Notes under the pieces: model-generated
What the model was told of the DNA's origin: nothing
Seen by the model: the letters and a program-made list of their open reading frames with translations, nothing else
Databases searched by the model: none
In this document: one piece after another, positions 2,757 to 3,100 of the stretch
How positions within the stretch are numbered: the first letter of the stretch is position 1
Layout: the number at the start of each line of letters is the position of its first letter
Assembly (NCBI RefSeq): GCF_900166625.1
Contig: NZ_LT800499.1
Span: forward strand, 1,468,630-1,532,629
Direction of reading: 5' to 3'
Length of the DNA: 64,000 bases
DNA from: Halobacillus massiliensis
GTDB taxonomy: Bacteria > Bacillota > Bacilli > Bacillales > Halobacillaceae
Position numbers and translations under genes: made by a program

Positions 2757-2785
2757 TTGTTAAATTTAAAAATTATAATTATAAT
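2757..2785 (+). promoter_or_regulatory. Sigma-A promoter of the riboswitch-SinI unit
   Basis: TTGTTA (2757-2762), a 17-base spacer and TATAAT (2780-2785) form a near-consensus housekeeping promoter about 30 bases before the aptamer. Confidence 0.75.
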
Positions 2786-2815
2786 GAGGGTTAATAATAC
2801 AACTTCTCCTTGAAT

Positions 2816-2906
2816 AAAGGCAAACTTATTGAAAAATAAGGACGCAAAGCTACGGGTCTAAGGCCAGTTTTTTCTGGCTAGAGATTTTGACCGCCGGGTC
2901 GCCTAG
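2816..2906 (+). ncRNA. Cyclic-di-GMP-I (GEMM-I) riboswitch aptamer
   Basis: The conserved GEMM-I core is readable in order: GGCAAAC (2819-2825), a 6-bp stem CTTATT/AATAAG closed by a GAAA tetraloop (2825-2840), the near-invariant GGACGCAAAGC (2840-2850), the tetraloop-receptor-like GGGTCTAAGG, a second hairpin CCAG-T6-CTGG (2864-2877), and the closing GCCGGGTCGCC (2893-2903), whose last GCC can pair with the initial GGC. There is no intrinsic terminator between the aptamer and the start codon at 2930, and the Shine-Dalgarno lies only about 12 bases past the aptamer, so control of translation is more likely than attenuation. It is preceded by a sigma-A promoter and followed by a SinI-like gene. 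Confidence 0.9.
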
Positions 2907-2929
2907 GTGAATGGTGGAGGGATCATTCA

Positions 2930-3070
2930 TTGAAAAAGGCTAAGGAAACGAAGTTGGATGTGGAATGGGTCAGTCTCTTGAAAGAAGCCAAAGAAATGGG
3001 GCTTTCACCTGTGGAAGTGCGTAACTATTTAGCCCTTAGTAAAAAAATTATATTAAAGGAAAGAGTTTAA
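2930..3070 (+). CDS. SinI-like anti-repressor, 46 residues
   Basis: A short TTG-started frame (2930-3070) is preceded by GGAGG at 2916-2920. The product contains LDVEWVSLLKEAKEMGLSP and then EVRNYLALSKK, which aligns without gaps with the SinI dimerisation helix-turn-helix as I remember B. subtilis SinI (LDQEWVELMVEAKE, then SPEEIRKYLLLNKK). SinI proteins form heterodimers with SinR-type repressors and so relieve repression of matrix genes. The C-terminal tail is shorter than in B. subtilis SinI, and no SinR gene lies in the window. The Shine-Dalgarno sits in the loop of a perfect 6-bp hairpin (TGAATG 2908-2913 with CATTCA 2924-2929) directly before the start codon. Confidence 0.82.
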   Translation: MKKAKETKLDVEWVSLLKEAKEMGLSPVEVRNYLALSKKIILKERV

Positions 3071-3100
3071 AGCCTCTCAGCAGTTGGGAGGCTTTTTTTG
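3070..3100 (+). terminator. Terminator of the sinI-like gene
   Basis: AGCCTC and GAGGCT arms around an 11-base loop, followed by a run of seven T, immediately after the stop codon. Confidence 0.85.

Follow-up and report, generated by a model that had tools for sequence, protein, structure and literature searches.

A c-di-GMP-I riboswitch upstream of a SinI-like gene in Halobacillus massiliensis, its predicted control of translation, and the recurrence of the pair among the Bacilli

The stretch of the Halobacillus massiliensis genome analyzed here (64,000 nucleotides, referred to below as the window) contains a complete small transcription unit at 2757-3095, made up of a promoter, a c-di-GMP-I aptamer, a sinI-like open reading frame (ORF) and a terminator (Table 1), all within the span for which the original prediction had proposed a self-contained unit. 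The sigma-A promoter and the terminator that it had named were recovered, and the TATAAT of the former lies at the same position in most Halobacillus relatives (by eye). The promoter scan is weak by itself (2 found versus 1.3 expected in shuffles), and the terminator scan gave 1 versus 0.5 expected, with a fold of -15.6 kcal/mol (z -2.8). Transcription is expected to start at about 2791 to 2793. In all ten Halobacillus genomes that bear the unit, a hairpin with a T-rich tail follows the stop codon (by eye). The unit is solitary in this genus, flanked in 10/10 members by a DUF2187 gene and a TcaA-like gene; in the window it is found one gene behind a Wzz/tyrosine-kinase pair. Directly 5' of the -35 hexamer, at about 2741-2752, there is an element like TTTTCTGAAAAA that recurs in Halobacillus relatives (by eye). 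Similar letters also lie upstream of a second, riboswitch-less sinI of the same genome (locus L004), and the element is possibly the site of a shared regulator.

Table 1. Features of the riboswitch-sinI unit, in positions of the window
Feature	Position	Strand	Basis or detail
Sigma-A-type promoter, TTGTTA (2757-2762)-17-TATAAT (2780-2785)	2757-2785	+	10/12 consensus matches
Leader UUCUCC, complement of the Shine-Dalgarno (SD) sequence GGAGGG	2804-2809	+	Sequence
c-di-GMP-I aptamer including P1	2808-2907	+	Rfam covariance score
SD-masking hairpin	2906-2931	+	Arms 2906-2915 and 2922-2931; loop GGAGGG (2916-2921) is the SD; start codon at base
sinI-like gene, 46 codons, TTG start	2930-3070	+	SinI domain at residues 9-35
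Intrinsic terminator at unit end	3069-3095	+	12 pairs and T run

The predicted SinI-like gene stood up to the Pfam search, its 46-aa product matching the SinI domain (PF08671) at 46.7 bits (cut-off 31.4, E value of 2.7e-12). The protein is short and has no helix-turn-helix (HTH), and its best PDB match is SinI of Bacillus subtilis (1b0n_B, E value of 5.5e-8). With 46.3 bits it misses the 80-bit cut-off of the NCBIfam SinI equivalog (NF046031), so that we treat it as a SinI-domain protein rather than as an established orthologue of B. subtilis SinI. The aptamer, for which a covariance search had been proposed, matched RF01051 (c-di-GMP-I) at 2809-2906 with 66.9 bits, well past the gathering score of 35, and no other place in the window reaches an Rfam gathering score. 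We read its P1 as 2808-2812 paired with 2903-2907, with one U-U mismatch (register by eye).

The search of related genomes suggested at the outset showed that the pairing recurs, with at least 55 aptamer-sinI pairs in at least 44 genomes and at least 26 families (labels of the listings, each pair counted once). Their ORFs measure 35 to 71 aa, too short for an HTH plus a SinI domain. All pair counts are lower bounds, the order-sample aptamers having been taken among the matches listed and those of the class sample from 20 of 28 new loci. Within the genus, the unit is present in 10 of 11 Halobacillus genomes, the eleventh (G032) having no aptamer match. At the family level, 39 aptamers were found in 27 of 44 genomes, and 24 of them, in 18 genomes, have a SinI domain 47 to 83 nt downstream on the same strand. 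Some RF01051 match exists in 351 of 397 order genomes. The order sample of 41 genomes held 170 aptamers (per-genome counts) and SinI in 27 genomes, at least 19 of which, own genome included, have an adjacent pair (coordinate lists intersected by hand); the 21 pairs outside the own genome were rechecked by sequence, and the SinI of one genome, G064, falls below the Pfam cut-off (27.4 bits). At least 22 of the 170 aptamers thus precede a SinI, most serving other genes, and by our own arithmetic about 0.01 pairs would be adjacent by chance. SinI was detected in 15 of the 101 genomes of the class sample, with an aptamer directly upstream in at least nine (own genome included, 20 of 28 new loci scanned for aptamers). 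Two units per genome were seen in L158 (a tandem at a distance of about 700 nt), L153/L154, L148/L149, G001, G039-G043, G442 and G456, and by sequence the pair appears to have been duplicated repeatedly.

Among the family, order- and class-sample leaders looked over by eye, we found no hairpin with a U-tract between the aptamer and the gene, so that control is probably exerted at the level of translation. Three arrangements that would mask the ribosome binding site (RBS) could be distinguished. In the first, found in 17 leaders from Halobacillus, Thalassobacillus and two other genera, the SD sits in a hairpin loop, and the start codon is at the foot of the stem. The nine inner pairs are standard in 153 of 153 cells across the 17 leaders, compared to at most 62.7% in slid registers, although the variation is wholly one-sided, to G-U, with no compensatory change, and column shuffles give equal scores. 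The window belongs here, with a fold of -9.5 kcal/mol (z -1.9, a stability matched by 7 of 200 shuffles) that is unexceptional alone. In the second arrangement, an anti-SD in the leader shares nucleotides with the P1 5' strand (judged by eye). In 12 of 54 leaders, four of them also of type 1, the duplex is at least as strong as -10 kcal/mol; it amounts to -7.4 kcal/mol in the window and goes down to -11.8 in another Halobacillus. As C2808 and C2809 belong also to the outer P1 5' strand, the full leader:SD and P1 pairings are mutually exclusive. In the third arrangement, a hairpin of the form CCUGAAAUAC...GUAUUUUAGG takes the P1 3' strand as its 5' arm, and the SD lies in its 3' arm. A strict count (at least five P1-SD pairs, -8 kcal/mol or stronger) places 15 of 54 leaders from 14 families in it, and in an alignment of 14 of these (L179 left out) 98.5% of 136 cells pair, compared to at most 52.2% in slid registers, with no two-sided changes. 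Automatic typing of the 54 leaders (L188, with no start codon chosen, left out) gave 27 of type 3, 15 of type 1, 5 of type 2 and 7 unclear; this typing is crude, and the stricter count was used because several of its type-3 labels rest on three weak pairs. Since closed P1 and a fully masked RBS draw on the same nucleotides in the second and third arrangements, the ligand should unmask the RBS there.

The hairpin itself was rejected as a wide marker of such units. In named genomes the exact pattern occurs at 10 loci, with an aptamer in six (Halobacillus andaensis and five Thalassobacillus records) and none in the other four. With one mismatch allowed, 24 of the 397 order genomes have it; three of these matches, in G000, G025 and G033, are exact and belong to known units, and the 21 one-mismatch loci showed no c-di-GMP aptamer and no SinI domain in any frame, with the three positive loci as control. 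The riboswitch-less second sinI of the own genome has a similar structure at L004 1450-1470 (C2 1443818-1443838), AATGAAC-ggggag-GTTCATT, with the SD in the loop and TTG at the base (by eye), and the masking hairpin may thus predate the aptamer or act without it.

To evaluate the sign of the switch, we computed the cost of opening the region from SD to start codon with P1 forced or forbidden in 45 leaders, a set that excludes the ten class-sample leaders and in which start codon and SD were chosen by rule. Opening was cheaper with P1 in 39 of the 45, by at least 1 kcal/mol in 34, with a mean effect of -2.8 kcal/mol versus -0.9 for shuffled flanks (25 shuffles per leader, keeping base composition only and not dinucleotides). 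Thirty-three leaders fell below their own shuffle mean and 12 did no better than it, and in 21 at most 2 of 25 shuffles did as well. A separate run on the family leaders gave cheaper opening with P1 in 22 of 23. The type-1 leaders were negative in 15 of 17 cases, only 5 of which beat all but two or fewer shuffles. The opposite reading, an OFF switch in which closed P1 keeps the SD hairpin and blocks alternative folds that open the SD, with c-di-GMP lowering SinI, has several points in its favor: forcing P1 leaves the hairpin as the 3' fold of the window, L021 and L073, which share the window's hairpin type, come to +1.6 kcal/mol, and Off-type c-di-GMP riboswitches exist, for example, upstream of mcpA (PMC7793685, in the text available). 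In all, six leaders do not go the ON way (L021, L070, L073, L148 and L155 at +0.8 to +2.5 kcal/mol, and L161 at +0.1). However, the other 39 leaders have the opposite sign to OFF control, and where masking uses the P1 3' strand (strict type 3), 11 of 12 favor ON and 9 of 12 beat all but two or fewer of 25 shuffles, so we regard OFF control as unlikely. One of the six exceptions, L148, has the hairpin that uses P1. For the window's own leader, where the SD hairpin has a probability of 0.99 with P1 forced or forbidden and overlaps P1 by two weak G-U pairs, the effect of -2.8 kcal/mol was reached by 5 of 25 shuffles, and its sign therefore rests mainly on the relatives; on these computed folds, a translational ON switch is moderately supported.

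The ON switch that we favor would work as follows. In the absence of c-di-GMP, P1 would be open and the RBS masked as the loop of a 9- to 10-bp hairpin with the start codon at its base, while the free leader UUCUCC could also pair with the SD. Binding of c-di-GMP would close P1, removing the anti-SD leader; closed P1 would compete for the first nucleotides of the hairpin 5' arm and may be extended by pairing of the leader with GUGAA. The RBS would then open more easily and SinI would be made, which would pair with one or both SinR homologues and relieve repression, most likely of exopolysaccharide genes. The sign, the binding to SinR and the matrix output of this scheme are what we infer from the arrangement of its parts. 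The parts themselves and their conservation, together with the partner and enzyme genes described next, are established at the level of sequence comparison.

The genome encodes two SinR homologues with an HTH and a SinI-type C-terminal domain (L075 2595-2921 and 4092-4418), so that the partner required by the original prediction is present. They head an exopolysaccharide cluster, and a CpsB/CapC-like gene comes after each of them (tested for the first, similar by eye for the others). The whole arrangement (L075 2595-6355, same basis) reads sinR, CpsB/CapC-like, sinR, CpsB/CapC-like, a third such gene, and then the exopolysaccharide cluster, and the tandem would represent duplicated regulator-phosphatase pairs. 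There are also two GGDEF proteins, one of them with a GAF-GAF-PAS-GGDEF-EAL architecture. Possibly the SinI-like protein is under c-di-GMP control but has a target other than the exopolysaccharide-linked SinR, such as the HTH protein of L004 or an unseen regulator. The box GTTCTYT, the B. subtilis SinR operator consensus, was absent from seven intergenic stretches of L075, as from five of the window, and this together with the missed equivalog cut-off and the second sinI without an aptamer, about 28 kb upstream of the unit, speaks for such a target. Against it, both SinR homologues keep the HTH and the SinI-type C-terminal domain, and elsewhere aptamer-sinI units lie directly before sinR or convergent with it, which leaves a different target improbable in our judgment. 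Paired GTTCTYT boxes showed no excess genome-wide (2+2 versus 2+2 in the control). Of the two sites, one is near genes resembling the ResA/ResB pair and the other near a stretch of sugar-transferase/EamA-like genes (named by eye); as canonical SinR boxes were not found, the SinR regulon is a predicted one. Three GTTCTTT boxes in both orientations at L004 882, 939 and 1011 lie upstream of a short HTH protein without a SinI domain, which precedes the second sinI, and are possibly a SinR target. Taken as a whole, we give a probability of roughly 70% to the reading in which translation of a SinI-type anti-repressor is under ON control by a c-di-GMP-I riboswitch, with relief of SinR repression as the result.

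The assignment of the ligand requires some comment, as the aptamer also matched RF03167 (c-di-GMP-I-GGC) at 2810-2907 with 60.1 bits, marginal to its gathering score of 59, and RF03167 is the best Rfam call after clan competition, yet the bit score of RF01051 is higher. Each model matches a single place in the 4.3-Mb genome, this same aptamer (E values up to 0.1, 150 candidates scored per model). We take positions 20, 47 and 92 of the Vc2 pocket to correspond to G2819, A2846 and C2902 of the window (mapped by eye), and we read the letters of the variant names as the bases at these positions, on which G-A-C is presumably the canonical c-di-GMP-I set. The base after GACGC is A (A2846) in the window, compared to G in the RF03167 consensus. 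A different ligand, as the GGC label might hint, is thus very improbable given both the scores and the pocket, and c-di-GMP is the ligand to be inferred from the sequence. A47 is found in 55 of 55 sinI aptamers and G20 in 54, L025 (G028) having A (Vc2 numbering, L157 and L188 by eye). Position 92, in the same numbering, is U in seven (L008, L010, L012, L015, L027, L070 and L151), five of them from Halobacillus (by eye), so that affinity may vary among relatives; for these seven and for the A at position 20 of L025, a changed affinity or specificity is possible.

The TTG start that had been proposed is found at the base of the same hairpin in all ten Halobacillus units, and other genera with the same leader type have ATG or TTG there. 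Five aligned ORF pairs of Halobacillus relatives differ at 28, 17 and 48 first, second and third codon positions (93 in total), with 30 synonymous versus 46 nonsynonymous changed codons. That the ORF is untranslated and the riboswitch idle or serving the downstream TcaA-like gene, as its shortness, its TTG start and the preponderance of nonsynonymous codons in these close pairs might suggest, is hardly credible when a SinI-domain ORF with an SD-like site stands behind the aptamer in the units examined, third positions are the most changed (48/93) and a terminator separates the sinI-like ORF from the TcaA-like gene.

SinR and SinI form the textbook matrix decision switch of B. subtilis, a species in which c-di-GMP is not known to have much effect on the matrix. 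The window resembles that system in its SinI-domain peptide and SinR-type partner. B. subtilis, one of our 14 control genomes, has a SinI match and no RF01051 match. According to the accessible text of PMC3163267, SinI of B. subtilis frees matrix genes from SinR repression and sinI is under Spo0A, whereas the promoter of the window has no 0A-like box (at most one mismatch) in the 150 bp upstream of the aptamer. Other c-di-GMP riboswitches of Bacilli are those of Bc1 and cbpA in the Bacillus cereus group (PMC11218506 and PMC7423583, as excerpted). In these excerpts the platform of Bc1 is long and contains two Rho-independent terminators, whereas none precedes the gene in the window, and the window also differs from both in that its target is an anti-repressor.

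The original prediction held the link between aptamer and sinI to be undescribed, which does not stand: Irla et al. (2015, PMC4342826), in the portion available, combined RNA-seq 5' untranslated regions (UTRs) with Rfam and named a (c-di-GMP)-sinI 5' UTR in Bacillus methanolicus MGA3 (BMMGA3_08510), like the window a predicted c-di-GMP riboswitch in a transcribed sinI leader. There it takes up one table row and one sentence, which give no platform, sign, mechanism or wider distribution. Among the open-access matches listed, in the text that they offered, no report of the link was found other than this one. A paper on MogR cites, in its available part, deposited unpublished data on raised sinI expression at high c-di-GMP in Bacillus thuringiensis. 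The riboswitch-sinI unit, judged by sequence comparison, is real and conserved, and at least one publication has already mentioned the pairing, if briefly. With respect to the open-access literature searched, what appears new is the breadth, together with the three RBS-masking designs, the ON logic and the sense reading of a Paenibacillus riboswitch (see below).

We consider it reasonably likely that c-di-GMP ON control of SinI, exerted directly at the leader through translation, is the common Sin wiring across much of the class Bacilli. On this view several RBS-masking designs would have arisen on one aptamer-gene pair, and B. subtilis, with Spo0A and no riboswitch, would represent one of the minority states. 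The wiring would have been overlooked as sinI is too short for reliable annotation, which would also have led to the report of an antisense riboswitch at sinR. Were c-di-GMP read directly at sinI in most SinI-bearing Bacilli, the textbook Sin wiring would not be general, and c-di-GMP, a widely used signal, would gain a short route to the matrix decision.

Gene order in the relatives brings sinI and sinR together in several cases. A SinR-type domain lies 450 to 560 nt behind the unit in several Thalassobacillus units and others, and the sinI and sinR matches are convergent in G067, G071, G072, G080 and G081 (by eye). Outside the order of the window, G426 and G481 have the aptamer, a short sinI ORF and then sinR on the opposite strand, and in G426 the sinR strand also carries a camelysin/TasA-family gene (PF12389), upstream of sinR. 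At L186 (1342-2841) an aptamer-sinI unit is convergent with sinR, with a camelysin/TasA-family gene upstream of the latter. In Paenibacillus sp. FSL P4, a c-di-GMP-I riboswitch has been described as antisense to a SinR homologue (PMC9943018, available text). The likeness to G426 and G481 is that of a c-di-GMP-I aptamer beside sinR; the difference is that the published one is called antisense, whereas in these two genomes the aptamer precedes a short sinI ORF convergent with sinR. Their layout raises the possibility, by analogy, that the Paenibacillus riboswitch is in fact the sense switch of an unannotated sinI, which it may drive, and if so, a short and poorly annotated target gene can make a sense riboswitch look antisense.

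Spo0A may take part as well in some lineages. Boxes resembling TTTGTCRAA, which we take to be the 0A box consensus, occur with at most one mismatch within 150 bp upstream in 24 of 55 units, compared to 5.4 expected by shuffling. Perfect boxes were found in five Thalassobacillus sinI units (L029, L067, L068, L069 and L071) and in L145 and L147, 89 to 120 bp upstream of the aptamer, and some lineages may thus combine control of the promoter by Spo0A with control of the leader by c-di-GMP.
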